Shown: in pieces, positions 32,610 through 64,000 of the stretch
Position numbering within the stretch: the stretch's first letter is position 1
Layout of the letters: each line of letters starts with the position of its first letter
Assembly: GCA_017883235.1 (NCBI GenBank)
Contig: JADGNY010000002.1
Location: forward strand, 1-64,000
Length of the DNA: 64,000 nt
Direction: 5' to 3'
Source of the DNA: Thermoanaerobaculia bacterium
Lineage (GTDB): Bacteria; Acidobacteriota; Thermoanaerobaculia; Gp7-AA8
The notes under the pieces: model-generated
What the model was told of the DNA's origin: nothing
Seen by the model: the letters and a program-made list of their open reading frames with translations, nothing else
Databases searched by the model: none
Program-made: the position numbers and the translations under genes

Positions 32610-35345
32610 TCAGTGAAACTCCGCACTGGCCCGCCGCGCCAACAACTGCCTGGCCACTCGTTCGACCCCCGCGGCGACGTTCGTCCACCCCTCGTCCTGC
32701 GTCGGCCACTTCGAGATCGGCTTGCCCATCTCGGGGAGCGCGTTCAGCTTGCCGAAGGGGAGGTTGGTCCAGGCGTTCGTCGGCCGGACGATGATCGGAA
32801 TGACCTCTGCCGTGCCTGCCTCATGCTTCTTCATCGCCTCGGCGAGCTCGGTTTCGTAGCAGTAATTCGAATCGACGAAGTCCGCGCTGATCAGGAGCAG
32901 CACGATGTCGGCTTCGTTCAGCTTCTGCGAGATCTCCTCCGCCCATTCATCGCCCGGATCGATGTCGTGGTCGTACCAATCGGTGATCAGTTTCAGGCGC
33001 CGGAGCGGCGACAGATGTTTCTTCAGGCTGAGCCGGTGCCTCGAATCGACATGCGCGTATCTGTAGAAAACCAGCAGCGGCTCCTCACCCGAACTCCCTC
33101 GGCCCAGACGCGCGAGACCGTCGTCGCCGAGCCTCGGCGATCGCGGGCCGAGGTCGACGCCGTTCAGAAGATCGCGGACCGGCAGCACGACCACATTCCG
33201 ATCGATTACCTGTTGCCACTTTGCATCGGCGTCGTTACTTTCCAGGACCTCCAGATCGCGATACGGCACCACGACCTGAGGGTGATTCGGTAGCGGAACC
33301 ATCTCGGCCGGGTTGAGACGCTGAATGTCGCTGTGGATGGCCTCGAAGTCCTCCCGGATCACCGCCAGCATCCGGCGGCGCGTATCGACCGGGCCGTCGA
33401 TGGAGATGAAAACGCGGCGTTCCTGCAGGTCGGCCTTTACCAATGCCGTGTTCCCTTCAAAGTTCAGGATCACCCCGGTACGCCAGCGATGCTTCTCGCT
33501 GAGGACGTGGGTGCGCACGATGAACCGCGGAAGTAACCCGGATGGAAGCACGGGATAGTGGTATTGGAAATTGAGGCAACCGGCCGGATCGAACTTATCC
33601 GCTTCCTTCGGCTGCTGTGGGTCGAGAAGCTCCGGTATCAGATAGCGGCCTCCCGTTGGAAAGCTGAAACAGAGCTCGAACTTCTCCATCAGATCGAGCA
33701 GGAACTGGTGCATCTTCTCGGGATAGCGAGTTTGGTCGAGCTCCTTCTTCAAATCTTCGACGCGCAACTCCCCTTTCGCCGCTGCCAGCCGAGTGGAGTT
33801 CAACAGCCCGTAGATTCCCTCGGTGACCCAGTGCGGATTGAGCACATGGGTGTCGCGCAGGCGCCGGTCCTCGCGAAAATTCAGAGCAATGCCGAGACGA
33901 TGGAGGTGGGTGGCCAGACTCTCTTGGGCGCCTTCGTCCTGCTCGCCGTATTTCGCGCAGATGGCACGGTACTCATCGAACGACAGGAAGTTCTTCCTCG
34001 TCTTCGAGAGCTTCTCTTTGATCTCGAACCATGCCGCTGGGAATGCTGCGCGAAGATCCGGCAATTGATTCGTTTCGCGCGCGATCGCCTTGCGCAATTT
34101 ATCGATGCCCAGGCCCTTCGCGCCGGGCTCAGCTTTCGAATCAGGATTGTCGCAGTCTGTCTCCACGAACGCCCTGATTTGCGGGAACTTATCCTGCAAT
34201 GCGCGCCGGTTCAGGTCGAACGGATCTTTACGGACCTTATTGAGCACCACCAGCACAGGCGATTCGGGAGCGAAGCTGGTTACGATACGCAGCCAGTAGT
34301 CGACTTCTGCTTCCTGCTGTCCGCCCCGCCCGTCAAGCACCAGCACGTAAACGCTTCGGTCAGTTAGAAAAAACTGATGCGTCGCGTGCATGATCTCCTG
34401 ACCCCCGAAGTCCCACACATGCATCCTAACCTCTTCGGCTCGGTTTAGAGCCAGAGGCCATTGAGTAATCCGTATTCCTTGAGTTCGGTCTTCGCGACGA
34501 GAGAACCTGTTCTCGACCAGCCGCTTCACAAGCGAGGTTTTCCCGACCTCGCCGCGTCCGACCAGGATTAACTTCGCCTCCCGCAGAGGTCGTCGCTGTT
34601 GATCGGTACGAGTACGGGAGTAGTAATCTAGTATCAGGCTTGGTTCTGGGACGTTAAGTTTATCTCGCTCTGGAGACCAATCGATCCATTGCGGCCCTAG
34701 AACCGCTGCCGGCAGATGTAAACCGGGATTTTCGTGTAAAAACAACGCATTGAGCGACTTCAATCGGCGAAGGGATAATGGCAGGATGCTCAGGTTGTTG
34801 TCAAAAAGGACCAGAGTTCGCAGACCTGTGAGATCGCCAATCGATTCCGGCAACACCGACAGTTCGTTTCTCGCTACATCGAGTATTTGAAGTTGCGTCA
34901 GTTGCCCGATCGATTGAGGAAGAGAAATTAGCTGGTTACCAGAAAGGTCGAGTTCAATAAGCTCTGTGAGTTGACCAATTGATGCCGGGAGGGTCGTGAT
35001 TTCGTTATCCCACATGTCTAGGACTCGCAATTTCGTTAAGCGTCCCAGCCACTTCGGCAGTGCTCTGAGCTTATTACTTGAGACGCGGAGGTTTCTTAAG
35101 TTGCCCAGTTGGCACAGTAATTCAGGAAGCGCGGTGAGTCGATTGTCCGCGATGGAAAGGAACTCAAGCTGCGCGAGTTGCGAAAGGGATCTAGGTATCT
35201 CCGCCAAACCGAGGCGATCCAAATAGAGGCCCGTAACTTGTTCGTCGCCGGCTTCAGCTAGAGCTTCAGCTATCCGCAGTTCGGCCTCGGCAAAGGCTTC
35301 GTCGGCACTCGATTTGGCAGTGAAAGGACGCTTCTTCGATCGCAT
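32610..35345 (-). CDS. LRR-Roc-COR-TIR protein (Roco family with TIR effector)
   Basis: A 911-residue multidomain protein. Residues about 37-210 are seven or so 23-residue leucine-rich repeats (pattern LxxLxLSxNxLxxLPxSIGQL). Residues 255-430 are a Roc GTPase: P-loop GRGEVGKT (263-270), switch II DFGGQE (312-317), and a G4 site reading NKVR instead of NKxD. Residues about 430-700 fit the COR dimerisation region. Residues 755-900 are a TIR domain: VFYRYAHVD, WYDHDIDPGDEW, DIVLLLISADFVDSNYCYE, with Glu833 aligned to the catalytic NADase Glu. The 5' half, coding the LRRs, is visibly more AT-rich than neighbouring genes, suggesting acquisition. No second gene is attached. A sensor-switch-NADase role, as in phage defence, is inferred. 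Confidence 0.9.
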   Translation of the reverse strand: MRSKKRPFTAKSSADEAFAEAELRIAEALAEAGDEQVTGLYLDRLGLAEIPRSLSQLAQLEFLSIADNRLTALPELLCQLGNLRNLRVSSNKLRALPKWLGRLTKLRVLDMWDNEITTLPASIGQLTELIELDLSGNQLISLPQSIGQLTQLQILDVARNELSVLPESIGDLTGLRTLVLFDNNLSILPLSLRRLKSLNALFLHENPGLHLPAAVLGPQWIDWSPERDKLNVPEPSLILDYYSRTRTDQQRRPLREAKLILVGRGEVGKTSLVKRLVENRFSRREDRTQGIRITQWPLALNRAEEVRMHVWDFGGQEIMHATHQFFLTDRSVYVLVLDGRGGQQEAEVDYWLRIVTSFAPESPVLVVLNKVRKDPFDLNRRALQDKFPQIRAFVETDCDNPDSKAEPGAKGLGIDKLRKAIARETNQLPDLRAAFPAAWFEIKEKLSKTRKNFLSFDEYRAICAKYGEQDEGAQESLATHLHRLGIALNFREDRRLRDTHVLNPHWVTEGIYGLLNSTRLAAAKGELRVEDLKKELDQTRYPEKMHQFLLDLMEKFELCFSFPTGGRYLIPELLDPQQPKEADKFDPAGCLNFQYHYPVLPSGLLPRFIVRTHVLSEKHRWRTGVILNFEGNTALVKADLQERRVFISIDGPVDTRRRMLAVIREDFEAIHSDIQRLNPAEMVPLPNHPQVVVPYRDLEVLESNDADAKWQQVIDRNVVVLPVRDLLNGVDLGPRSPRLGDDGLARLGRGSSGEEPLLVFYRYAHVDSRHRLSLKKHLSPLRRLKLITDWYDHDIDPGDEWAEEISQKLNEADIVLLLISADFVDSNYCYETELAEAMKKHEAGTAEVIPIIVRPTNAWTNLPFGKLNALPEMGKPISKWPTQDEGWTNVAAGVERVARQLLARRASAEFH

Positions 35346-41312: not shown

Positions 41313-43088
41313 TTACTTCATCTTCCCCATCAACTGCTTCATCGCATCCCGAATGATCGCGCTCCTGCTGGGGTCGTGCAGCAGCGACGTGACGAAATTC
41401 TTCGCCTCCTCGAACGTGATGTGCGGCGGCAACGGCGGGACCTCGGGGTCGGTGCGAAAGTCGAGAACACATGGCCGGTCGAGGGCCAGCGCCTCGTCCC
41501 AGGCCGGACCGACATGTTCGGCGGATTCGACGCGGATTCCTCCCAGGCCGATCGATGCGGCGAAGGCGGCGTAGTTGAACTCCGGCAATTCCTGCGATGC
41601 GACGAACTTCGGGTCACCGGCCAGCACGCGCTCCTCCCACGTGACCATGTTCAGGTCGTGATTGTTGAGGACGCAGACAATGAGCCGGGGATCGGACCAC
41701 TCCTTCCAGTACTTGGCCACGGTCAGCAGCTCTGCCGAGCCGTTCATCTGCATCGCGCCGTCGCCGCAGCAGGCGATGGCCACCCGTTCCGGAAAGGCGA
41801 ACTTGGCGGCGATGGCGTACGGCACACCGGGTCCCATGGTGGCCAGGTTGCCGGAGAGCGATCCCATCATCCCGCGGCGCATGCGCAGATGCTGCGCGTA
41901 CCAGCTCGCCGTCGATCCGGAATCGGCGGAGAGGATGCAGTCGTCGGGCAGGCGCTTCGACAGCTCGTGAAACACACGCCGCGGATTGATGCCGTTCACG
42001 GCGTCGTCCATGGCTCGCTCGTCCATCAGCTTCCACCAGTCGCGGATCGATTCTTCGAGCGTCTGCAGCCAGGCGCGATCGCTCTTCCGCTGCAACAGCG
42101 GGATGAGTGCGCGCAGCGTCTCCTTGCTGTCGCCGACAAGGTTGACCTCCATCGGGTAGCGGATGGAGAGCTGTCTCCCGTCGATATCGATCTGCACTCC
42201 TCTAGCAGAACCATCCTCGGGGAGAAACTCCGGATAGGGGAAGCTGGAGCCGACCATGAGCAGCGTGTCGCATCCGGACATGAGATCCCAGCTTGGCTTC
42301 GTGCCGAGGAGCCCGATCGTGCCGGTGACGAACGGCAACGCGTCGGGCAGCGCCGACTTGCCGAGGAGCGCTTTGGCCACGCCGCACCCGAGGAGATCGG
42401 CCACTTCGACCACCTCATCCATGGCCCGGAACGTGCCGGCGCCGACGAGCATGGCCACCTTCTTCCCCGCGTTCAGAACGTCCGCGGCGCGGCGGAGATC
42501 CTCATCCTTCGGAATGATGCGCGGGCTCGTGTAACCGACGCCGGAGTGAACCGTGGCGTGCTTGTGCGGCGGCTCCTCCCACGGCTCTTCCTGCAGATCG
42601 TTGGGAATGATGATGGCCGTGACGGTGCGCTGGTCGAGGGCGATGCGGATGGCCCGGTCGATGAGATGCCGCAGCGACCCCGGCGCCATGGCCGTCTGGC
42701 AATACTCGCTGGCAACGTCCTTGAACAACGTCTGCAGATCGACTTCCTGCTGATAGCTCCCGCCCATTGCCAGACGTGACGACTGCCCGACGATGGCCAC
42801 GACCGGCTGATGGTCGAGCTTGGCGTCATACAAGCCATTCAACAGATGGATCGCCCCCGGCCCCGAGGTGGCCATGCAGACCCCGACGTCCCCGGTGAAC
42901 TTGGCGTGCGCGCAGGCCATGAAGGCCGCCATCTCCTCGTGCCTGACCTGGATGAAGTCGATTTTCCCGTCAGCCCGGTTCAGCGCGCCGAGGATTCCGT
43001 TGATCCCGTCGCCGGGATAGCCGTAGATGCGATGGACGCCCCACGCTTGGAGGCGTTCGACGAGGAAGTCGGATGCGGTTTTCGACAT
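41313..43088 (-). CDS. Thiamine pyrophosphate enzyme, pyruvate oxidase-like
   Basis: A 591-residue ThDP-dependent enzyme of the pyruvate oxidase/acetolactate synthase superfamily. The start YGYPGDGINGI and the catalytic Glu in VRHEEMAAFMA belong to the PYR domain. The central domain (LLGCGVAKALLGKSALPD) would bind FAD or be structural. The PP domain has GDGAMQMNGSAELLT with a downstream Asn (LNNHDLN), the ThDP-Mg motif. Pyruvate oxidase or a quinone-linked dehydrogenase (PoxB-like) is the likely activity, but carboligases cannot be excluded. A single gene. Confidence 0.9.
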   Translation of the reverse strand: MSKTASDFLVERLQAWGVHRIYGYPGDGINGILGALNRADGKIDFIQVRHEEMAAFMACAHAKFTGDVGVCMATSGPGAIHLLNGLYDAKLDHQPVVAIVGQSSRLAMGGSYQQEVDLQTLFKDVASEYCQTAMAPGSLRHLIDRAIRIALDQRTVTAIIIPNDLQEEPWEEPPHKHATVHSGVGYTSPRIIPKDEDLRRAADVLNAGKKVAMLVGAGTFRAMDEVVEVADLLGCGVAKALLGKSALPDALPFVTGTIGLLGTKPSWDLMSGCDTLLMVGSSFPYPEFLPEDGSARGVQIDIDGRQLSIRYPMEVNLVGDSKETLRALIPLLQRKSDRAWLQTLEESIRDWWKLMDERAMDDAVNGINPRRVFHELSKRLPDDCILSADSGSTASWYAQHLRMRRGMMGSLSGNLATMGPGVPYAIAAKFAFPERVAIACCGDGAMQMNGSAELLTVAKYWKEWSDPRLIVCVLNNHDLNMVTWEERVLAGDPKFVASQELPEFNYAAFAASIGLGGIRVESAEHVGPAWDEALALDRPCVLDFRTDPEVPPLPPHITFEEAKNFVTSLLHDPSRSAIIRDAMKQLMGKMK

Positions 43089-43278
43089 GACGGGGAAGAA
43101 GAGAGCACAATCTGTGCGCGATTCATGGGATCTGGCGGAAGGGTATGACGCAACGAGCCGTCACCGGTCTCGTGGGAGATCGGCGCCACGTAACGTCGGA
43201 GCGAGCAAAGATATGAACGTACTTAGACTTAGATCCACACAGGCACCATCGACTATCGAAAGTGCTACAATTCAGTAA

Positions 43279-43662
43279 ATGGCGACGAGAGCGGTAAAGC
43301 CCGTGCCTGAACTCTCTACCGTAGAGACTTTGTCTCTGCACGCAGGACACCGAGCGGCCGTGTATCGAGCTGTGGGTATGTATGTGATCTTGCTCTCGGG
43401 GCTGGCGATCGTGCTTTCGTTTTTCGGTTTCTCCTCTGATGCCAGGTTCATCCTAAGGTATGTTACGGCTGGCAGCGGCGCAACGGTGTTCATGCCGTTT
43501 GTGCTGAAGTACATGAAGTGGGCTGGGATTCGAGATGTCTGTCAAAACTTGAAGGTCTTGCTAGCTCAGTCGGCCGAACAGCCAGGAGCGGTTAGCAACG
43601 CAGCGCTCACCTTGATGGCCGGTCAGTTTTGGACTCTATACAAGGGTCTGTGGAGGGCGTAA
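43279..43662 (+). CDS. Small membrane protein, unrecognised
   Basis: A 127-residue protein with two hydrophobic helices (about 33-50, VGMYVILLSGLAIVLSFFGF, and about 58-75). The C-terminal half is soluble and mostly helical. Its stop overlaps the start of the next gene by one base (TAATG), so the two are co-translated. The two-gene segment 43205-44270 is visibly more AT-rich than the neighbours, which suggests recent acquisition. Function unknown. Confidence 0.72.
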   Translation: MATRAVKPVPELSTVETLSLHAGHRAAVYRAVGMYVILLSGLAIVLSFFGFSSDARFILRYVTAGSGATVFMPFVLKYMKWAGIRDVCQNLKVLLAQSAEQPGAVSNAALTLMAGQFWTLYKGLWRA

Positions 43663-44264
43663 TGCCTGATTTATCCGTCACCGAGACAATAGACCTAATC
43701 GCGACTCAGGAGCGGCGGCAATTCCGGGCAATTATTATCGGGTCCGCTTTAATCGTGATCGTATGGGCCAGTCTTGCTTATGCGGCCTATCAACGACTAC
43801 ATTCACTGCGTGTCGAGATCGCCGAAGAGCAACAGCAGCAGCAGAAACTGACGTCAGCTGTAGCACGACTCATTCAGCAAAAGCAAGCGCTCGAAGGCAA
43901 AGTTGGTAAAGATATCCCGCTTCAGTATCTTGTCAAGCCACTCCTGAGTTCATCTGAAGTCCCTGGACTTCGCGACGTGCATGGACACCAAGTGTTCGAT
44001 TTTATTCTTTATGTCTATGTTCCGCCTTCTCGCGTCTCGGAGCTGGAAAGCGTGGCCTACGTGATCAATCATCCGGAACGCCTTAGGCCGTTGGTGCGAA
44101 GCGATGATCAATTAGGCCAATTTGCAGTCAAATACCGTGGTACCGGATGCTTTGCGCCTGTGATTGTGCGGGTCACGCCTAAGTCAAAACCGACGTTTGA
44201 TCTACCCTTTGACATGTGCGACGCCTGGCGCGCTGAAGCGGCGGCGCGTGCGCATGCACAGTAA
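43662..44264 (+). CDS. Membrane-anchored coiled-coil protein, possible YEATS-like C-terminal domain
   Basis: A 200-residue protein: one transmembrane helix (FRAIIIGSALIVIVWASLAY, about 21-40), a Gln-rich coiled coil (about 48-90), then a beta-rich domain. The last part (VAYVINHPERLRPLVRSDD and FAVKYRGTGCFAPVIVRV) resembles the prokaryotic YEATS-type beta sandwich with its G-x-G-x-F turn, seen in membrane-linked signalling and conflict proteins; this is a weak, by-eye match. Start at 43662 has GGAGGG eight bases upstream. Confidence 0.7.
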   Translation: MPDLSVTETIDLIATQERRQFRAIIIGSALIVIVWASLAYAAYQRLHSLRVEIAEEQQQQQKLTSAVARLIQQKQALEGKVGKDIPLQYLVKPLLSSSEVPGLRDVHGHQVFDFILYVYVPPSRVSELESVAYVINHPERLRPLVRSDDQLGQFAVKYRGTGCFAPVIVRVTPKSKPTFDLPFDMCDAWRAEAAARAHAQ

Positions 44265-44483
44265 TAAACAAACAGATGCGTGTCAGAGGTAAGCGCCGTT
44301 TGGCGTCGTTTTGAGTAGGTCGGGGTCGCGTGGGTTTCGAACGTCCGTTGATCAATTCCAGAAACCCTACGCGACTCCTGCCGGAGTCGGATGAATGCCC
44401 GGGAAACGATTTCCGGTTGTCGCTCGCTTGGACCACCGGCTACCGTACGAGTCGCTCCAGCGACGTTGGCGTTGCCTCCAGAT

Positions 44484-44562
44484 TTAGAACTTCACGCCGA
44501 GGATTACGCGCCTTCTCGGTGACGCATACCCCACGACCTCCTCATACTTCGTATTCGCCAGA
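44484..44562 (-). pseudogene. Relic: last 25 codons of a TonB-dependent receptor
   Basis: Read on the minus strand the 79 bp encode LANTKYEEVVGYASPRRR then VILGVKF and a TAA stop. The intact BtuB-like receptor 1.1 kb away ends with the same 25 residues except for two substitutions (Thr for Ala, Arg for Ser) and uses TGA. Upstream of 44562 the similarity stops. This is what remains of a duplicated receptor gene after deletion. Confidence 0.88.
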
Positions 44563-44600
44563 AAACGCAGTGGTGCCAGGCCTTCGTTTTGGACCCCTAT

Positions 44601-44638
44601 CCAGGGAGGTAAGAACCAGCAGCTCGGCTGGGCCGCCG
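44601..44638. repeat. 38-bp direct repeat flanking the dehydrogenase gene, left copy
   Basis: Begins CCAGGGAGGTAAGAACCAGC and ends GGGCCGCCG. The right copy is at 45553-45590 with four differences. The two copies bracket the 2-hydroxyacid dehydrogenase gene in direct orientation. Confidence 0.82.
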
Positions 44639-44639
44639 G

Positions 44640-45473
44640 TCAATAGCCCGCCCTCTTGTCCACCACGTTCAGCAACGCCTCCCCCCGCTCGAAACGGGCG
44701 AGGTTCTCGAGGAAGCAACGCATGGCTACCTCGTGCGAGTCGTCGGTATGGTCGGCGCAGTGCGGCGAGAGCAGCACGTTTTCGAGTGCCGACAGCGGGT
44801 GGTCGGGGGGGAGGGGCTCGGCGGCGAAGACGTCGAGCGCGGCGCCTTTGAGGTGATGGGACTCGAGCGCGGCGAGGAGCGCTCCTTCATCAACGACGGC
44901 GCCGCGGCCGACGTTGATCAGCACCGAGCCCGGCTTCATCCGCCGCGGATCGACCAGTCCGCGGGTCGATCCGGTGAGTGGCGCGCAGACGACGACGTAG
45001 TCGGACTCGGTGAGCACCTCGTCGAGCGAGCCTTGCCGGCGCGAGAACGGGATCACTCGCATGCCGGCGCATCGCGCCGCCACCGCCCGGCCGATCGATC
45101 CGTAGCCGACGATGCCGACCGTTTGCCCTTCGATGCGCTGGACGTTGAACGGCTCCCATCGCCGCACCCGCATCAGCCGCGGAATGTCTTTGGCGAAGTG
45201 AAGGATCGCGGCGAGGACCCATTCCGCCAGCGCGGGCGCGAAGATCCCCCTGCCGTTCGTCACTGGGACGTCGATCTCCGGGAAGAGGAGGTTCTCCACG
45301 CCCGCGGAGAGCGCGTGCACCCACTTCACGCTCGGAATCCGCGGCCAGACTTCGCGAAGCCGCGCTCCGGCGCGCGGGTGAACGAGCACGATCTCGGCGT
45401 CGCCGTCTGTGGCGTACTCGGGCAGCATCGAAAGCGGCGCGAAGTCCGGCGGTCCGAGGTAGAGCAGGCGCAT
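44640..45473 (-). CDS. D-isomer-specific 2-hydroxyacid dehydrogenase
   Basis: A 277-residue NAD(P)-linked dehydrogenase, slightly short for the family (about 310). The Rossmann motif GIVGYGSIGRAVA, the substrate Arg in LTGSTRGLVD, the NVGRGAVVDEGAL block and the catalytic His in LSPHCADH with its upstream Glu (FAAEPLPP) are all present. It resembles the GhrA-like glyoxylate/hydroxypyruvate group with a shortened N-terminal domain. The gene sits between two 38-bp direct repeats, next to a TonB receptor relic and an intact receptor. Confidence 0.9.
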   Translation of the reverse strand: MRLLYLGPPDFAPLSMLPEYATDGDAEIVLVHPRAGARLREVWPRIPSVKWVHALSAGVENLLFPEIDVPVTNGRGIFAPALAEWVLAAILHFAKDIPRLMRVRRWEPFNVQRIEGQTVGIVGYGSIGRAVAARCAGMRVIPFSRRQGSLDEVLTESDYVVVCAPLTGSTRGLVDPRRMKPGSVLINVGRGAVVDEGALLAALESHHLKGAALDVFAAEPLPPDHPLSALENVLLSPHCADHTDDSHEVAMRCFLENLARFERGEALLNVVDKRAGY

Positions 45474-45552: not shown

Positions 45553-45590
45553 CCAGGGAGGCGAGAACCAGCAGCTGGGGTGGGCCGCCG
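45553..45590. repeat. 38-bp direct repeat flanking the dehydrogenase gene, right copy
   Basis: Begins CCAGGGAGGCGAGAACCAGC; differs from 44601-44638 at four positions. Located between the dehydrogenase start and the BtuB stop. It is followed by a GGGCCGCC...GGCGGCCC hairpin (45583-45602) that could end btuB transcription. Confidence 0.82.
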
Positions 45591-45622
45591 TTGGCGGCGG
45601 CCCTTGCGAGTGGGCTTGGTGG

Positions 45623-45625
45623 TCA
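45623..45625 (-). other. BtuB stop codon used for relic comparison
   Basis: The intact gene ends AAG TTC TGA here, while the relic at 44484-44486 ends AAG TTC TAA. The differing stop codons show that the relic is not a recent exact copy. Confidence 0.8.
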
Positions 45626-47467
45626 GAACTTCACCCCTAGAATCACCCTCCTGCTCGGCGACGCATACCCCACAACCTCCTCATACTTCGCATTCGCCAG
45701 ATTCTCGATCTTCACGAACGGCGTCAGCCGCGAGAGCCGGTACTGCACATTCACGTCGACGGTCGTGTAGGCACGGTTCGTCGTACGCGTGAACGGCAGT
45801 ACGGCGAGGTTGTCGTCGCGCTCGCCGGTGCGGAGGAGGGCGAGGTTGGTGTCGACGGCGCCGGTGCGGTAGCCGGCGGAGATCGAGCCGGAGTGCTTGG
45901 GGCGGCGGAGCAGGCGCAGGCCCGTCGCTTCGTCGTCGTTGCGGTGGAGGTAGGTGTAGCTGAAGGCGGTGTAGACGTTGGCGCTGACGTGCTGCGTGGC
46001 GCCGAGCTCGAGGCCGTCGCTGCGGACGCGGCCGATGTTCTGGGAGATGAAGGTGACCGGGTCGAAGGTGATGAGGTTGCGGTAGCGGGTGTTGAAGTAG
46101 GTCAGGGAGAAGAGGCCGTCGCGGCCCATGGCGGCGTCGTAGCCGATCTCGTAGCTGCGGTTGCTCTCGGCGCTGAGGTTCGGGTTGCCGAAGAAGGGGA
46201 AGTAAAGCTCGCCGAGGGATGGGGCGCGGAAGCCGCGGCCGAAGGCGGCGCGCCACTTCGTGGCGCCGGTGACGATGGCGGCGGCGATGCGCGGCGAGGT
46301 CTGCGAGCCGAAGACGTCGAAGTGGTCGCTGCGGACGCCGGCGCTGAGCTCGAAGCGTGACGTCTGTCCGATCGGGTGCGTGTAGCGGTCTTCGATGAAG
46401 TACGAATGGTCGGTGCGTCGCTTGTCGAGGAAGTTCGGGCCGAAGTTGGTCACGTCGTTGACGACGTCGTGATCGTATTCGCCGCCGGCGACGATGGTGC
46501 CGACCGGCGTGGTGAAGCGTGTCGTCAGGCGGGCGCGGCGGGTCTTGGCGTCGGTCGACGTCGACGTCGTGAAGGGATCGGCGGGATCGTGGAAGTCGTC
46601 AACGCGGTGATTGTCGGAAAGCGTCAGGTCGGTGATGAAACGTCCAAGGGTGAGCGTGGCGGGGATGGCGATCTGCGTCTCGGTTCCGTTCTGGCGGCGG
46701 TCGAGGCTGGGGACGAGCGCCGTCCCGGCCGCATTGGTGTTGAAGGGGATGCCGAGGTTGTAGGAGGTGTGGCGCGCGGCCGCGCCGAGGGAGAAAGCGT
46801 CGGAGGAGGACCACTTGAGGTTCGCGCCGCCGCTGTTCTGACGGAAGTCGTCGTTCGGGTTGAAGCCGTCGTCGGTGCGGTGCTCGTAGGTGCCAGCCGC
46901 AGTCAACGTATCGCTGGCGTATGCGGCGTCGATCATGGCGTTGCGCAGCCCGTGGCTTCCGCTTTCGAAGTCGCCATGCACGCCGCTGGTTCTCGGCGCC
47001 GTCAGCACGTTGATCACTCCGGCCATGGCCTCTGAGCCGTACAACGCAGAAAACGGGCCGCGGACGACTTCGATCTGTTCGACGCCGGCGGTGGAGAAGC
47101 GTCCCCAGTCGTAGCCCGAAAAGTACGGGTTGTTGAGGACGATGCCGTTCCACATCACCAGCGTTTGCGTCGACGCGGCGCCGCGCGTGAAGAGCGAGGT
47201 GGCCTTGCCGGGCGATCCGCTGCGGGCCAGGACGAGACCGGGCACTTCGCGGAGGACGTCGGCGACATCGCGCGCGGCGCGTTCGTCAATGTCTGTCCGG
47301 GTGATGACGGTGACCGCGGCGGGCGTCGCCTGCACGCTTTCGGGCAGAGACGAGGCGGTGACGACGATCTGAGCCTCGATCGTTGGTGAGGCATTGGTGG
47401 GTTGTTGGGTGGATTGAGCGAACGACGGGACGACAAAGAAGAGAGACAGTGCGAGAACACGCTTCAT
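45623..47467 (-). CDS. btuB: TonB-dependent outer-membrane receptor, probable vitamin B12 transporter
   Basis: A 614-residue outer-membrane receptor. Signal peptide MKRVLALSLFFVVPSFAQ, a TonB-box-like stretch (EAQIVVTAS), the plug domain (TDIDERAARDVADVLREVPG, GGxxG-like region, FSALYGSEAMAGVINV) and a 22-strand barrel ending in Phe (RRVILGVKF). A cobalamin riboswitch lies directly upstream on the same strand, which strongly supports cobalamin or another corrinoid as substrate. Start at 47467 has AAGGAG nine bases upstream; the longer frame would overlap the riboswitch. A relic of a sister gene is at 44484. Confidence 0.93.
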   Translation of the reverse strand: MKRVLALSLFFVVPSFAQSTQQPTNASPTIEAQIVVTASSLPESVQATPAAVTVITRTDIDERAARDVADVLREVPGLVLARSGSPGKATSLFTRGAASTQTLVMWNGIVLNNPYFSGYDWGRFSTAGVEQIEVVRGPFSALYGSEAMAGVINVLTAPRTSGVHGDFESGSHGLRNAMIDAAYASDTLTAAGTYEHRTDDGFNPNDDFRQNSGGANLKWSSSDAFSLGAAARHTSYNLGIPFNTNAAGTALVPSLDRRQNGTETQIAIPATLTLGRFITDLTLSDNHRVDDFHDPADPFTTSTSTDAKTRRARLTTRFTTPVGTIVAGGEYDHDVVNDVTNFGPNFLDKRRTDHSYFIEDRYTHPIGQTSRFELSAGVRSDHFDVFGSQTSPRIAAAIVTGATKWRAAFGRGFRAPSLGELYFPFFGNPNLSAESNRSYEIGYDAAMGRDGLFSLTYFNTRYRNLITFDPVTFISQNIGRVRSDGLELGATQHVSANVYTAFSYTYLHRNDDEATGLRLLRRPKHSGSISAGYRTGAVDTNLALLRTGERDDNLAVLPFTRTTNRAYTTVDVNVQYRLSRLTPFVKIENLANAKYEEVVGYASPSRRVILGVKF

Positions 47468-47512
47468 GACGACTCCTTCCCTCCGAAGAAGGCCGATCAA
47501 AAGTGGGTTCCG

Positions 47513-47695
47513 AGCCAGCCGGTCTCCTGGCTTCCGGGTCATCCTCGTCGCGCCGCCTTCCCGCATCGGGAGATGCAGTGGCTTTCGTGGAGCGAGTCGT
47601 CGCCGGTCACAGTGGCGGGGGCCGCGCCGGCATCACACCGGCTTCCCGTTCACTGACTCAGAGGAAATTGGGAAAGAACTTCTCACAGTCTATCC
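47513..47695 (-). promoter_or_regulatory. Cobalamin riboswitch
   Basis: On the minus strand, in order: CGGGAAGCCGGTG, then GCCGGCGCGGCCCC, then CCCGCCACTGTGACCGG, then the B12 box AAAGCCACTGCAT, and the 3' element CCGGAAGCCAGGAGACC. This is the ordered set of conserved segments of the AdoCbl riboswitch. It lies 46 bp upstream of the btuB start, so bound cobalamin would reduce receptor synthesis. Edges are approximate. Confidence 0.93.
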
Positions 47696-53903: not shown

Positions 53904-53993
53904 GGAGGAGTGGCCGAGTGGTTTAAGGCAGCGGTCTTGAAAACCGCCGTACCTGCAAGGGTACCGTGGGTTCGAATCCCACCTCCTCCGCCA
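53904..53993 (+). tRNA. tRNA-Ser (anticodon UGA)
   Basis: A complete 90-nt class II tRNA with encoded CCA: acceptor GGAGGAG / CTCCTCC, anticodon stem GCGGT / ACCGC with loop CTTGAAA (anticodon TGA), a long variable arm (ACCTGCAAGGGT), and the T-arm GTGGG TTCGAAT CCCAC. It reads UCA and related serine codons. Its 3' end is an integration site (see the duplicated 28 bp at 56943-56970). Confidence 0.96.
53966..53993. other. attL-like site: 3' end of tRNA-Ser
   Basis: 28 bp covering the T-arm, acceptor strand and CCA. Identical to 56943-56970. Confidence 0.88.
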
Positions 53994-54255: not shown

Positions 54256-54720
54256 ATGTCGACGCTAAAGTTTCTATTCGCCCTGGGCGGTGCAATCTAT
54301 GTGATCGCTACCGGAATGCGGGCGGTTAACGAAGACGAGTGGGGACAGTTTGCGTGCGGATGCTGTATCGTGCCCGTCCTCGCTTTCGCGATAGCTCCTC
54401 TCCTGTGGACTGACCTCCATCCGAACACTCCAAATGTACTAAACGGCGTAGTTCACCCTTTATTCGATGCGCTAATCGGCGGCCTCATGTCTGTGGGGGC
54501 AGTTTTAATGTCGGGTATCGTGAACTACCGATTGAACAAGGAACAACGTGCCTATAACGACCTCATCAAAGGTCGGGGAGCGTCAAATCTGGATAGGGCG
54601 CACAGGCCCGCCACACCGGTGTTGGAGCGTATTCTCTCGCATCCTCTCGTGTCCCTTCTCGCCTTCATCGCGTCCATCCTCACAATCCTAGCCTTCTACT
54701 TTCAATTCCTCCGGCGGTGA
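54256..54720 (+). CDS. Island membrane protein, unrecognised
   Basis: A 154-residue protein with about four hydrophobic segments: STLKFLFALGGAIYVIATGM, CGCCIVPVLAFAIAPLLW, ALIGGLMSVGAVLMSGIV and VSLLAFIASILTILAFYF. A charged stretch (NKEQRAYNDLIKGRG) lies before the last helix. First gene of the tRNA-Ser island on the plus strand. Its small size and position beside a HEPN-like protein would suit a membrane sensor or effector of a defence module, but there is no direct evidence. Confidence 0.72.
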   Translation: MSTLKFLFALGGAIYVIATGMRAVNEDEWGQFACGCCIVPVLAFAIAPLLWTDLHPNTPNVLNGVVHPLFDALIGGLMSVGAVLMSGIVNYRLNKEQRAYNDLIKGRGASNLDRAHRPATPVLERILSHPLVSLLAFIASILTILAFYFQFLRR

Positions 54721-59343: not shown

Positions 59344-61788
59344 GTGCATGATGTCGCCCGAATGGCGGCGATGAGCACGATCGGCACGGTGTCTGCCCTG
59401 CTTGGACCAGCCGTCTCCGCCACCGCGCTCTATCTCGTCACCGCCTGCGCGCTGGGGTTCCTCGCGCACCGGTTTGTCCGGCCGATGTCGAAGACGGCAG
59501 CGCTCATCCTGCTGCTTCTTCCCCTTTGCTTCACGGGGCGCGCGCTCCTGACCGGCCGGGTGTATGCGCCGATCGATTTCCCGTACGTCGCGCAGCCGCT
59601 GCTGTCGTTTCGCGCCGATTTCAGGGTCACGGGGCTGCATAACGGGGTGCTCAGCGATGTCTACAGCCTCAACATCCCGTGGCGGTACGCCGCGCGGCTG
59701 GCGATTCTTCGCGGAGAGTGGCCCTTGTGGAACCCGTATGTGGCGGCGGGCGACATTCTGGCCGCGGCCGCACAGCCGACTCCCTACGAGCCGCTCTTTC
59801 TGATCAGTCTCCTCCTCCCCATGCCGGTGAGTCTGACCTTTCTCGCCGCGATCACCTTCTTCCTCGGCGGGCTGCTCATGTTCCTCTTCCTGAGAGAGAT
59901 CGCCTGCTCGGAGCGGGCGGCGCTGGTGGGAGCCGCGGCCTGGACGTTCTGCGGGTTCCTGGTCTTCTTTCTGGACTGGGTGATCACGCCGGTGAACGTC
60001 TGGTTTCCTCTGGTCCTTCTCGGTGTGAGGAGGATGGTGCGCACCCCCGGGTTGCGTGCCATGAGCATCCTGACGGTGGCGTTCTCGATGATGCTTCTCA
60101 ATGGCCACCCGGAGAGCGCGCTTCACATCGTCGCCGTCGGCCTGGTGTGGGCGGCGGCGGAGTTGTGGCGTGTCCGGTTCCGTGGAATGACGCGATCCAT
60201 ACCGCTGGCGACTGCCGGCGGCGTCCTGGCTCTTGCCATTACCGCGATCTACATGTTTCCGATCGTTGAGGCCATCCCGCAAACATCGGAGCATCGCTTC
60301 CGGGAGAACGTCTTCGCGCACGCGCGGCGGTCGGGCCCGCCGGCCGAGGTGATGCAGAGACTGTTGCGGCAGTTCGTGCCGTTCATCATCGGGGAACCGC
60401 AGAGGCAGTGGCGTCCCAGGCCGACCGAGCTCAATGTCATCCCGGAGAGCATGTACGTCGGTAGCGCCGCTCTCTCGCTGGCGGTCTTTGGCCTCTGGCG
60501 TTCACGGTGGCGCGGCAAATGGCTGGTGTTGGCGCTGGTGCTCTCCGGAATCGCGATCGGTATCCAGCTTCCGCCGTTCGGCGACCTTCTCGCCAAACTG
60601 CCTTTGTTCGACATCGCTCTCAACGAACGGCTGATTCTGGTCTCGGCATTGGGACTGTGCATTTTTGCAGCGCTCGGGGTCGACGCCATCGTCAATGAGC
60701 CAAGCGGGCGCCGGCCGGCGCTGGCCGCCTTGGGCGTCTTTTTGTTTCTTCTCGCTCTTTGCGTTTACCTGTATCCCGGGATGCGCGCCCGCGGGCTGAC
60801 CGCCGGGTATCTATACGGGGCGATCACACTCCTTCTTCTACCGCCGATTCTTGTCGCAGCGGCGTGCTCGCCGCGCCGTCCCGCCGCCCTCGGGCTCGCG
60901 CTTCTGATCATTGTCACCGGCGAGCGCACTCTGCAATCAGGCGACTTCAACCCCACCCTGTCAGCCAGAATGTTTTATCCGGCGGTCCCGCTGTTCAGCC
61001 ATCTCCAGCATAGTGACGATCCATACCGGATCGTCGGGGTCGGTGATGTTCTTCCGCCGAATATCGCCACCATGTATCAAATGGAAGACGTGCGCCAATA
61101 CACGGCCATGACCTTCACCGCGAATTACGATCTGCAGCCGTTGTGGTCCGCGCACCAGCCGGTCTGGTCGAATCGGGTCGACGATCTCACCGCGCCGTTT
61201 CTGTCACTGATGAACGTACGGTATGCCTTCGCCGAGAGCTCCGTCGTGCCGCCGCCACACTGGTCACTTGTCGCATCCGACCGCGGGACGCAGCTATTGG
61301 AGAACCAGAACGTTCTCCCGCGTGCATTCATCCCGAGGGCGGTCACGATCGGAGACAACCCCTTCATCTGGGAAGGGATCCAGAAGGAGAAGGACTTCAG
61401 CGCCCGAGGCTGGATCGTCATTCCGGGAGAGAGTCCTCGGCAGGAGCCGAATGGGTCGGGATCATTGACGGTCCGAAGACAGGGCATGGGAGCTCTTGCC
61501 ATCCGGTCCCATCTCGATTCGAACGCCTGGGTGGTGGTGTCGGAAACGGCGTGGAAGGGATGGCGTGCGCACGTCGACGGAGAGCCCGCCAAGCTGAGAA
61601 TCGCAGATGGGATGTTTCTGGCGATGTATCTTCCGGCCGGAGATCATGACGTTCGCCTGACCTATTGGCCGCGTTCCTTCGTCGTCGGTAGAGCGATCTC
61701 GGCGGTCACGCTCCTGCTGATCGGCGTGAGCGCGGGGATCGTACTGCTGCGCCGCCGCCGAGGGGCGTTGAGAGCTACGATGCCGTAG
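59344..61788 (+). CDS. YfhO family membrane protein
   Basis: An 814-residue membrane protein of the YfhO type, implicated in glycosylation of surface polymers. It has an N-terminal hydrophobic region with about 14 helices (about 15-535), a conserved loop (PIDFPYVAQPLLSFR near 78-92, SLNIPWRYAA), and a C-terminal beta-rich periplasmic domain ending in one more helix and RRRRGALRA. WVVVSETAWKGWRAHVDG and YLPAGDHDVRLTY are typical of the family's end. Start GTG at 59344; ATG at 59362 is the alternative. Overlaps the next gene by one base. Confidence 0.85.
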   Translation: MHDVARMAAMSTIGTVSALLGPAVSATALYLVTACALGFLAHRFVRPMSKTAALILLLLPLCFTGRALLTGRVYAPIDFPYVAQPLLSFRADFRVTGLHNGVLSDVYSLNIPWRYAARLAILRGEWPLWNPYVAAGDILAAAAQPTPYEPLFLISLLLPMPVSLTFLAAITFFLGGLLMFLFLREIACSERAALVGAAAWTFCGFLVFFLDWVITPVNVWFPLVLLGVRRMVRTPGLRAMSILTVAFSMMLLNGHPESALHIVAVGLVWAAAELWRVRFRGMTRSIPLATAGGVLALAITAIYMFPIVEAIPQTSEHRFRENVFAHARRSGPPAEVMQRLLRQFVPFIIGEPQRQWRPRPTELNVIPESMYVGSAALSLAVFGLWRSRWRGKWLVLALVLSGIAIGIQLPPFGDLLAKLPLFDIALNERLILVSALGLCIFAALGVDAIVNEPSGRRPALAALGVFLFLLALCVYLYPGMRARGLTAGYLYGAITLLLLPPILVAAACSPRRPAALGLALLIIVTGERTLQSGDFNPTLSARMFYPAVPLFSHLQHSDDPYRIVGVGDVLPPNIATMYQMEDVRQYTAMTFTANYDLQPLWSAHQPVWSNRVDDLTAPFLSLMNVRYAFAESSVVPPPHWSLVASDRGTQLLENQNVLPRAFIPRAVTIGDNPFIWEGIQKEKDFSARGWIVIPGESPRQEPNGSGSLTVRRQGMGALAIRSHLDSNAWVVVSETAWKGWRAHVDGEPAKLRIADGMFLAMYLPAGDHDVRLTYWPRSFVVGRAISAVTLLLIGVSAGIVLLRRRRGALRATMP

Positions 61789-62504
61789 TGCGGGCCATCG
61801 ACTCGAAGCTCTTCGTTCTCTCCGCGGAGATCGATCGCGAGGTCGATGATTACCGCGCGTCCGTTCCCGCGATCCGCAGCGCGGAGTCGATCGCGTTTCG
61901 CAAACCGGTGACGATGTTCATCGGCGAGAACGGATCGGGGAAGTCGACGCTCGTCGAGGCCATCGCCATCGCGGCGGGATTCAATCCCGAGGGGGGGTCG
62001 AAGAACTTCCAGTTCGAAACGGTGCGGAGGGAGGTGGAGCTCGATCCGCTGTTGCGTCTCGTGCGCGCGCCGCGGCGTCCGTCCGACGGCTACTTTCTTC
62101 GCGCCGAGAGTTTCTTCAACGTGGCCACGGAGATCGACCGCCTCTGCGTCACGCGCGGATACGGCGGCCAGTCGCTCCACGAACAGTCGCACGGCGAGTC
62201 GTTCATGGCCCTGCTCCTCAACCGATTCCTCGGCGACGGTCTGTACGTCCTCGACGAACCGGAAGCCGCTCTCTCCCCGATGCGGCAGCTATCGATGCTC
62301 GCTCGCATCCACGATCTCGTCCGCGCCGGCTCACAGTTCATCATCGCCACCCACTCACCGATCCTCATGGCGTATCCCGACGCCACTCTCCTTTTGATGG
62401 AGCAAACCATCCGCGAGGTCGCGTACGAAGAGACGGAACACTACACGGTGATGCGCGATTTCTTCAATCACCGCGCGGCGATGCTGCGGGAGTTGATGGG
62501 GTAG
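61788..62504 (+). CDS. AAA family ATPase (SMC/ABC-like, predicted ATPase)
   Basis: A 238-residue ATPase: Walker A GENGSGKST near 46-54, a degenerate signature HGESF, Walker B LYVLDEPEAAL and the H-loop ATHSP. This is the short, stand-alone form of the AAA_21/AAA_23 class without a coiled coil or nuclease domain. GTG start overlaps the YfhO stop by one base. Similar ATPases occur in several defence and repair systems, but also alone in chromosomes; the role is unknown. Confidence 0.88.
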   Translation: MRAIDSKLFVLSAEIDREVDDYRASVPAIRSAESIAFRKPVTMFIGENGSGKSTLVEAIAIAAGFNPEGGSKNFQFETVRREVELDPLLRLVRAPRRPSDGYFLRAESFFNVATEIDRLCVTRGYGGQSLHEQSHGESFMALLLNRFLGDGLYVLDEPEAALSPMRQLSMLARIHDLVRAGSQFIIATHSPILMAYPDATLLLMEQTIREVAYEETEHYTVMRDFFNHRAAMLRELMG

Positions 62505-62598
62505 TGGAGCAGCCGAACTCGAAGTGGGCCCGCGAGATGCCTTCCGGCTCGCCCCGCTCAAAACGCTTCTCGCGATACCGAAACTGGAAACCTGTGGG

Positions 62599-63339
62599 AT
62601 GATATCAACGTCAAACACTCCGATGAGTTGGAACGCACGCAGCCTCCGTCTGACAATTTTTCCGGCGGGCGAAGGCAACTGGCCATCGTGGAGCGACGTC
62701 ACCGGCGCTACAGCCGAAACGTCCCTGACGCGTGCGGGGCTGATCCAAGAGGAGGGAGCTTTTGCCGATGGGCAATTGAGTCTATTGCGGCAAATTCCTC
62801 TCCGGCTCGACCTACTCTACTCGGCGGCAATATCGCCGACGCCGGAGTCAACTAGCGGCCCTCGGAGCGTAGGTCAGCTCGACACCGCTTTGGTCGTGTT
62901 CACCCCTCTCGCGGACCACTTTCTGGTCAGCGCCCCCCAGGCACTCAGAATTGCTTTCGGACTGCAACTCGTCAAACCATCGCGGAGTCGTGCCGAAGCG
63001 TACGACATCCTTAACGCTTCGATTTGTAACGCAAAGTTTGATTTCGAGAATGCTCAAGAGTTTTCGTATCAAATCAACCGTCCAAGAAAATCGACCGGTG
63101 TCGATAACGACCTCCTTCTAAACCGACTCTCAAAATGGTCGGCACTTATGGAAAGGCTTGTGGTTGACGATCTTTCTAGCGGTCGAGTCGTCACGGCAAG
63201 TGAATCTTATGGTGCCTCGCTGGAAATAGACGTCAACACGGCTGCGGATCGAGGAGATCCTCTTCAAAACCCTGCTGAACTGTTTAGGGAATTGACACGG
63301 CTTGCCGTCGAAATAAGCGAGAAGGGAGACGTGAAGTGA
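62599..63339 (+). CDS. Unrecognised protein, first gene of a coupled pair
   Basis: About 246 residues from ATG at 62599 (ATG at 62623 is an alternative; the open frame reaches back to 62524). It begins with a beta-rich stretch (SLRLTIFPAGEGNWPSW) and ends in a helical part. No signal peptide or membrane helix. Its stop overlaps the GTG of the next gene. The segment from 62600 to the window end is less GC-rich than the rest, so the pair may be acquired. Confidence 0.65.
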   Translation: MISTSNTPMSWNARSLRLTIFPAGEGNWPSWSDVTGATAETSLTRAGLIQEEGAFADGQLSLLRQIPLRLDLLYSAAISPTPESTSGPRSVGQLDTALVVFTPLADHFLVSAPQALRIAFGLQLVKPSRSRAEAYDILNASICNAKFDFENAQEFSYQINRPRKSTGVDNDLLLNRLSKWSALMERLVVDDLSSGRVVTASESYGASLEIDVNTAADRGDPLQNPAELFRELTRLAVEISEKGDVK

Positions 63340-64000
63340 CAGCTGCGCCTGGATCTTCAAAACGCTTGACCTTAACCGGAGCCTCGACGGCGTTGAGCGA
63401 GCAGATCACGCCCGCGCAATCACTTGTCAAGAATGCGCGAGGCGCTCTCATGCCGTCGGGTTTTCAGTGGGTGGACGGCCCTCTACTTGGTGAACAGAGA
63501 CTCACGTCTCACGTGCGCTCACCGGCGAACAGGTGGTTTCTGGTTGTAACGTCCTCGACCGCGCGCCCGGATCGCGGACGGCTACTGGCCGAGATTCGAT
63601 TTGAACGCTTTGAGCGAAGCGTGCGAGAACAAGATGAGCCGGACGATTGCGATATTTTGGAGCCACTTCGTCAGTTCTTGATTTCTACGCAAGGGGCTGG
63701 GCTATCACTTGTCATTGACCTTTTGGAATCACGTGTCCCCAAGAATTCGTTGATCTGTCGCATTCTTGAAGATATGGCGTTGATAAAGATGGATGACGTT
63801 CGGGATGAGATACTCGAAGTCTACCGGGCGGCCTTTGCTCACCCTTCTCCTGCAGTTCGGGATGCGGCTGCTCTGGGGTTACTGGACCTAGGCAGCAGGG
63901 CGGCTCGCATGCTGCTTGAACATCAAAGCGCGATTGAGGACAATCGAAACGTTCGAAATAGCCTCCGTCAAGTGTTAGCCTCGTTTCCGACGTATGCTGG
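63336..64000 (+). CDS. HEAT-repeat-like protein, truncated by window end
   Basis: An open frame from GTG at 63336 to the last base (221 codons, no stop), overlapping the previous stop as GTGA. The first 150 residues are mixed (FQWVDGPLLG, LLAEIRFERFE). From about residue 130 the chain is helical, and HPSPAVRDAAALGLLDLGS is a good HEAT-type repeat. It is coupled to the upstream unrecognised gene, so the two probably act together. No function assigned. Confidence 0.7.
   Translation, partial: MTAAPGSSKRLTLTGASTALSEQITPAQSLVKNARGALMPSGFQWVDGPLLGEQRLTSHVRSPANRWFLVVTSSTARPDRGRLLAEIRFERFERSVREQDEPDDCDILEPLRQFLISTQGAGLSLVIDLLESRVPKNSLICRILEDMALIKMDDVRDEILEVYRAAFAHPSPAVRDAAALGLLDLGSRAARMLLEHQSAIEDNRNVRNSLRQVLASFPTYA

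Follow-up and report, generated by a model that had tools for sequence, protein, structure and literature searches.

The window analysed here, a stretch of 64,000 nucleotides from a Thermoanaerobaculia bacterium, contains two small rightwards-transcribed genes, W1 and W2, flanked by leftwards-transcribed genes for a TPP-dependent enzyme (41313-43088, - strand) and a 2-hydroxyacid dehydrogenase (44640-45473, - strand). The question they raise is whether the product of the second carries a YEATS domain and, if so, what such a domain would do on a membrane protein. An earlier note had described two co-translated membrane genes within 43205-44270, with a composition unlike that of their neighbours, and had guessed at a YEATS-like domain in residues 110-200 of the second protein. 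The pair and its signals are:

43279-43662, + strand: W1, 127 aa, ATG start, TAA stop at 43660-43662; a small membrane protein (ORF list, hydropathy)
43652-43657, + strand: GGAGGG, ribosome-binding-site-like, 4 bases 5' of the W2 ATG (sequence)
43660-43664, + strand: TAATG stop/start overlap of W1 and W2, with one shared base (sequence)
43662-44264, + strand: W2, 200 aa from ATG; N-terminal motif, transmembrane (TM) helix, coiled coil and YEATS-like domain
44293-44306, + strand: terminator-like stem 3' of W2; weak, with three such sites versus 1.1 expected in shuffles

Co-translation of W1 and W2 is likely, because of the TAATG overlap and the GGAGGG ahead of the W2 ATG; the longest open reading frame of W2 begins at an upstream TTG and has 211 aa, against the 200 aa of the ATG version. 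Overall GC is 0.554 in W1 and 0.527 in W2, a 1-kb GC profile drops to 0.54 at the cassette versus about 0.65, and GC at the third codon position is 0.65 and 0.52, respectively, versus 0.84-0.88 in the six neighbouring genes measured. Both parts of the earlier description thus hold: the two frames (43279-43662 and 43662-44264) are joined by the TAATG overlap and have TM helices by hydropathy, and their position-3 GC (0.65/0.52 versus 0.84-0.88) sets them apart. As composition deviates from that of the neighbours, a foreign origin is indicated, and from the sequence W1 and W2 are best read as a laterally acquired pair. In 15 of 1,000 block shuffles of the region an open frame of 200 codons or more appears, so that the length of the W2 frame by itself argues only modestly for a gene; the stronger argument that W2 is a gene is its domain match. 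The parts of the two proteins are:

43303-43374, + strand: N-terminal motif of W1, VPELSTVETLSLHAGHRAAVYRAV, common with W2 (local alignment)
43369-43425, + strand: W1 TM helix 1, about aa 31-49 (hydropathy maximum 2.33)
43450-43506, + strand: weak second hydrophobic stretch of W1, about aa 58-76 (mean hydropathy 1.34); uncertain
43662-43733, + strand: N-terminal motif of W2, MPDLSVTETIDLIATQERRQFRAI, common with W1 (local alignment)
43725-43784, + strand: W2 TM helix, about aa 22-41 (hydropathy 2.28), within the confident helix 6-81
43785-43904, + strand: coiled-coil-like helix of W2, about aa 42-81 (confident helix 6-81, AlphaFold single-sequence model)
43995-44216, + strand: YEATS-like domain of W2, aa 112-185 (PF20305 match, pairwise tests, model)

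W1 is composed of an N-terminal tail, one clear and one weak TM stretch, and a C-terminal part of no known family; it has no family match of usable score in Pfam, NCBIfam, PADLOC or PHROG. W2 begins with a tail of about 20 residues, followed by the TM helix, a Q-, L-, E- and A-rich helix continuing as far as residue 81, a linker and the beta domain (112-185). The two tails are alike (PELSTVETLSLHAGHRAAVYRAV in one and PDLSVTETIDLIATQERRQFRAI in the other), with the shared motif placed just ahead of each first TM helix. Local alignment of the N-termini gives a score of 41, which was not equalled in any of 20,000 trials with the W2 tail shuffled, a figure somewhat flattered because the stretch was picked after being seen; with the W1 tail alone shuffled within the whole protein, the full local score of 47 is reached in 2 of 5,000. 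The likeness of the tails, as a feature of the sequences, is a new observation. The orientation of W2 is weakly supported, as positive charge is near-equal on the two flanks of its TM helix; a placement with the domain outside is suggested by the shared tails and by the positive C-terminal flank of W1 (by eye).

The top Pfam match of W2 among 24,736 models is pYEATS (PF20305; E 0.0011, 19.2 bits), with residues 112-181 aligned to positions 1-68 of 73, nearly the whole profile, and a six-frame search places the match at 43995-44213 (profile 1-71). It is the only PF20305 match in the whole genome at E up to 1, a limit at which 7 of 14 control genomes also give matches, none of them above the cut-off. 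The score lies below the curated PF20305 cut-off of 26.9 bits, and W2 is therefore filed here as a divergent homologue, not as a curated member. This cut-off is also missed by two proteins that have the canonical motifs (L040, 20.1 bits; L008, 25.6 bits), of which L008 is annotated as pYEATS in its own record.

Further pYEATS domains were gathered from 3 of 297 genomes of the same phylum, from 20 loci on genome contigs, from six plasmid records (four taken further), and from 2 of 349 genomes in the phylum of L029 (Bradyrhizobium) and 11 of 282 in that of L037 (Myxococcales). The latter 631 genomes (349 + 282) yielded three matches below the cut-off (L065, L066 and L067), where about six chance matches are expected at E up to 0.01; because of this expectation L065 is trusted on its pairwise similarity and layout and not on its Pfam score, and L066 and L067 are uncertain as pYEATS carriers. 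The last two are Myxococcota papain-like proteins with lipoprotein-signal-like N-termini (by eye) and a weak C-terminal pYEATS match.

Pairwise comparison of the W2 domain with 39 other domains gives a shuffle z above 4 for five of them: L065 (11.7, and 11.1 with none of 5,000 shuffles as high), L059 and L057 (8.5 and 7.2, none of 500 as high for either), L058 (4.7) and L068 (4.2). No z above 2.4 is seen with the other 34 (L060, 1.6; L005, 0.3), which are mainly of the canonical class, and W2 lacks the motifs DPQKG[RQ][FW]GG, LH[DP][TS]F, GAFTVG and LELDL of the effector-linked class. Profiles of pYEATS domains drawn almost entirely from the DPQKGRFGG class score W2 no better than shuffled sequence: the 26-domain profile gives 0.2 bits, below many shuffles, and the 7-domain profile likewise fails. 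L057 in turn matches solved YEATS chains (Taf14 best, E 3.9e-9; also AF9, YEATS2 and YEATS4) as well as the Pfam YEATS model PF03366 (51 bits), and the chain from W2 through L057 and L059 to eukaryotic YEATS therefore consists of significant steps; a profile of W2 and L065 finds no YEATS match in the PDB. That the W2 domain is a YEATS homologue is well supported at this level of comparison.

Modelled by AlphaFold as a single sequence, W2 has one confident helix (6-81) and a beta domain with pLDDT under 50. With an alignment of 20 pYEATS domains, which biases the model towards a YEATS-like outcome, the domain reaches a pLDDT of 78.6 and a pTM of 0.63, and is predicted as a seven-stranded Ig-like sandwich with two helices, one short and one C-terminal. 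Foldseek gives this model no match with an E value of 0.001 or lower, and the 50 matches listed include no YEATS chain. VIA-align lists YEATS2 (5iql_A; Z 5.7, rmsd 3.4 Å, 87 of 101 residues aligned, 20% identity), with the highest identity among the 50 matches listed, as well as 7eie_B and 5xnv_A; many other, unrelated Ig-like folds score level with YEATS2 (Z 5.5-6.6). The predicted fold agrees with YEATS without proving a YEATS topology.

The earlier note had given W2 a TM helix, a coiled coil and a beta domain, a layout now backed by hydropathy, the helix 6-81, the Pfam match, the alignment-guided model and the pairwise tests. Its guess for residues 110-200 is supported by pYEATS as best Pfam match, the pairwise z values and the link of L057 to eukaryotic YEATS. 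The profile search it had proposed returns PF20305 as best match, under the cut-off; structure prediction returns an Ig-like sandwich, so that the outcome it had named as refuting, a structure lacking a YEATS-like immunoglobulin fold, is absent, a result that the pYEATS alignment favours.

YEATS domains of animal and yeast cells are readers of acylated histones. Taf14 holds the acyl group in a sandwich of F62 and W81 (PMC6212594). At the positions aligned with these residues, in an alignment of 40 domains, W2 has R140 and T161, and L065 has I and P. Of the 40 domains, 38 retain the first aromatic and 36 the second; both are missing only in W2 and L065, which are also the only two with an extra N ahead of HP (NHP), and L008 and L064 lack the second aromatic only. 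W2 and L065 form a sub-lineage that, judged from its sequence, is not expected to bind acyl-lysine in the known way.

As to presence in relatives, which the earlier note had put forward as a check, W2 is found among 100 related genomes only in its own and is absent from the other 99. No close relative of W2 was found in viral contigs, genome contigs, plasmids or phages. Thirteen weak matches within the phylum (E 0.001-0.03) were dropped, being by eye other proteins or TM-plus-coil layouts. The profile of W2 and L065 gives, beyond its two queries, weak partial matches only, in 2 of 188 Myxococcota genomes and 2 of 199 genomes of the same phylum as W2. In 148 genomes of the class, W1 has besides itself a single match, to a frame of 4,919 aa (E 0.0066), and it has none in plasmids or viral contigs. 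Neither protein matches a PADLOC defence model up to E 10.

The neighbouring 2-hydroxyacid dehydrogenase was found under a strict limit in 3 of 19 other relatives, in stretches with no W1, W2, TPP enzyme or TonB receptor; because these carry none of the neighbours, an empty site could not be shown. No insertion repeats bracket the cassette. Between W2 and the dehydrogenase lies a scar (44486-44638) that retains the final codons of a TonB-receptor-like gene, its stop codon and 38 nt of flank; pieces of the scar are 87-89% identical to pieces of 45553-45700, their order swapped between the two copies. The TonB receptor gene (45623-47566) has a cobalamin riboswitch (47500-47672, - strand) at its upstream end.

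Several known systems share parts of this arrangement. L065, from Myxococcota genome G993, has like W2 a TM helix, a coiled coil and an NHP-type domain without both aromatics (BLASTP E 1e-6 in a single comparison), but its coil is much longer (343 aa in total), and it is a single gene with no W1-like neighbour. The lineage of L057, L058, L059, L060 and L068 is pYEATS (PF20305) that also resembles eukaryotic YEATS. W2 is like L057, L058, L059 and L068 in direct sequence similarity and in the pattern VxYxxHP...F...G.F, and its model is Ig-like; it is unlike L057-L060 and L068 in its sub-cut-off Pfam score, the N inserted before HP and the two missing aromatics, and it sits on a TM helix and coil whereas L068 is fused to a protease. 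Eukaryotic YEATS domains (Taf14, AF9, YEATS2), linked through L057, resemble W2 in its predicted fold and in the histidine of the HP loop; the F62/W81 acyl sandwich of Taf14 (PMC6212594) is replaced in W2 by R140/T161.

Membrane and pYEATS parts also occur together in the YLATT-pYEATS fusions (PF20303 + PF20305; L025, L034 and L040), but in one protein instead of two genes, and with the canonical DPQKGRFGG, LHxTF, GAFTVG and LELDL that W2 lacks; W1 has no YLATT (PF20303) match in Pfam up to E 10. L074 (Myxococcota, G1114) resembles W1-W2 in that a gene for a 235-aa protein with two TM helices and the pYEATS gene after it share an ATGA stop/start overlap, but its pYEATS protein has no TM helix or coil, and its membrane protein has no similarity to W1 (BLASTP E 8.6).

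Other pYEATS domains are fused to, or neighbours of, SIR2_2 (L028, L037), FRG (L011, L029) and TIR_2 (L038), and are found with a trypsin-like protease (L068) and a papain-like protease (L066), both of which look exported by eye; patatin (L008, L075, L076) and subtilase (L011) are further neighbours. TM stretches are seen by hydropathy in 10 of the 20 pYEATS proteins from genome contigs, and YLATT ('YEATS-Like-Associating Three TM') is present in three (L025, L034, L040) of the seven TM-bearing fusions scanned (L003, L025, L026, L030, L031, L034, L040). We note that the standalone pYEATS gene L057 lies at L075 (6057-11203) with genes for a TPR-S ('Tetratricopeptide Repeats-Sensor') protein, a 227-aa protein and a patatin; the 227-aa gene ends 3 bases before L057, and the neighbourhood resembles a conflict island. 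The names pYEATS and YLATT reportedly originate with the Aravind group. Among the papers listed, we found no description of pYEATS, prokaryotic YEATS or YLATT. The partners of other pYEATS domains are the sole basis on which, by analogy, W1 and W2 might be given a conflict or signalling role.

The reading we tentatively prefer is that W1 and W2 are a laterally acquired membrane module, with W2 as an envelope sensor and W1 as its small membrane partner; the function, orientation and ligand of W2 are those we infer as follows. The shared N-terminal motif would lie in the cytosol, with W2 anchored N-terminus inside and its stalk and YEATS-like domain projecting outside the cytoplasmic membrane. 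W2 would self-associate through the stalk and pair with W1 in the membrane, and the shared tail would serve both proteins in the cytosol as a motif for docking or assembly. A ligand or peptide would bind the YEATS-like domain by a route other than the acyl-lysine sandwich, altering the stalk and then W1, whose membrane part could act as the output, either as a leak or through a cytosolic partner recruited by the shared motif. The pair would work as the fused TM-pYEATS proteins (Pfam YLATT-pYEATS) do, split over two genes.

Pairing is argued from the TAATG overlap and the shared motif. There is precedent for a separate membrane partner in L074, for fused partners in the YLATT/TM pYEATS proteins, and for pYEATS on exported-looking proteins (by eye) in L066 and L068; counting against a sensor pair, W1 is without a recognisable relative and L065 without a W1-like neighbour. 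A more specific form of this reading is speculative and on balance unlikely: a YEATS-derived domain that lost its acyl-lysine sandwich would now sense outside the cytoplasm, carried by a stalk of TM helix and coiled coil, both in this acidobacterial-type genome and in a Myxococcota genome, and would here work with W1, which carries the same cytosolic docking motif. To our knowledge, no two-protein transmembrane signalling device of such a kind has been described for YEATS.

The main alternative, which we consider possible if rather unlikely, is a cytosolic conflict sensor, in which W2 has the opposite orientation in the membrane and its YEATS-like domain reads a cytosolic infection cue, and a pore-like W1 depolarises the cell. 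It draws on the likely cytosolic effectors to which pYEATS is joined or adjacent (SIR2_2, FRG, TIR_2 and patatin), on the YLATT membrane domains, and on the presence in the window of an LRR-Roc-COR-TIR protein (32610-35345) matching the PADLOC ThsB TIR model, but neither W1 nor W2 matches a defence model, and W1 has one clear TM helix only. The TIR protein is moreover about 8 kb off, beyond metabolic genes, and its linkage to the cassette is accordingly loose. We think it unlikely, too, that W2 is an envelope scaffold, a bitopic protein whose periplasmic coil aids complex assembly and whose YEATS-like fold is merely a protein-protein interface. The TM helix and coil of W2 weakly resemble GspM (E 0.0074), FtsL (0.031) and an Rz-like spanin (0.069), all of that layout; these matches cover the TM helix and coil only, however, composition alone can yield such scores, the two NCBIfam matches are far under their curated cut-offs, and a core envelope part would be expected in the other 99 genomes, where W2 is missing.

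A decaying passenger, recently inserted and functionless in its host, would suit the foreign composition, the lack of a close relative among those found and the TonB-receptor 3'-end scar nearby, but is improbable given that both frames are intact and start-stop coupled, that W2 has a ribosome-binding-site-like sequence, and that an N-terminal motif common to the two proteins points to selection on each of the genes. That the likeness to YEATS arose by chance and the domain is a different beta sandwich is very improbable, since against a score under the Pfam cut-off and a model Z that is middling among many Ig-like folds stand the comparisons with undoubted members (z 8.5 and 7.2, none of 500 shuffles as high) and with L065 (z 11.1, none of 5,000).

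W2 and L065 would let one ask whether pYEATS modules can sense from outside the cytosol. Their lineage, with the fold apparently kept, the cage residues gone and a membrane stalk added, also offers a test of what the YEATS fold binds beyond acyl-lysine, and the joining of pYEATS to immune-type effectors suggests another, perhaps older, role for YEATS.

Other features of the window are noted here in their own right. The LRR-Roc-COR-TIR protein (32610-35345, - strand) has 911 aa, and its N-terminal half lies in AT-richer DNA; its TIR part matches PADLOC ThsB (6.6e-48) and Pfam TIR_2, making it an NLR-like candidate defence protein. At 61788-64000 (+ strand) a 238-aa ATPase with many PADLOC ATPase matches (best mad3, 2.6e-20) is followed by two genes, the first of them without a Pfam match, in an AT-rich stretch that is a possible further defence-like island. 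In an AT-rich stretch directly after tRNA-Ser (53904-53993) lies a gene (54256-54720, + strand) whose 154-aa product has no Pfam match and, by eye, several hydrophobic stretches. In line with its acidobacterial-type DNA, the window also contains an Acido-Lenti-1 RNA, just above its gathering score.
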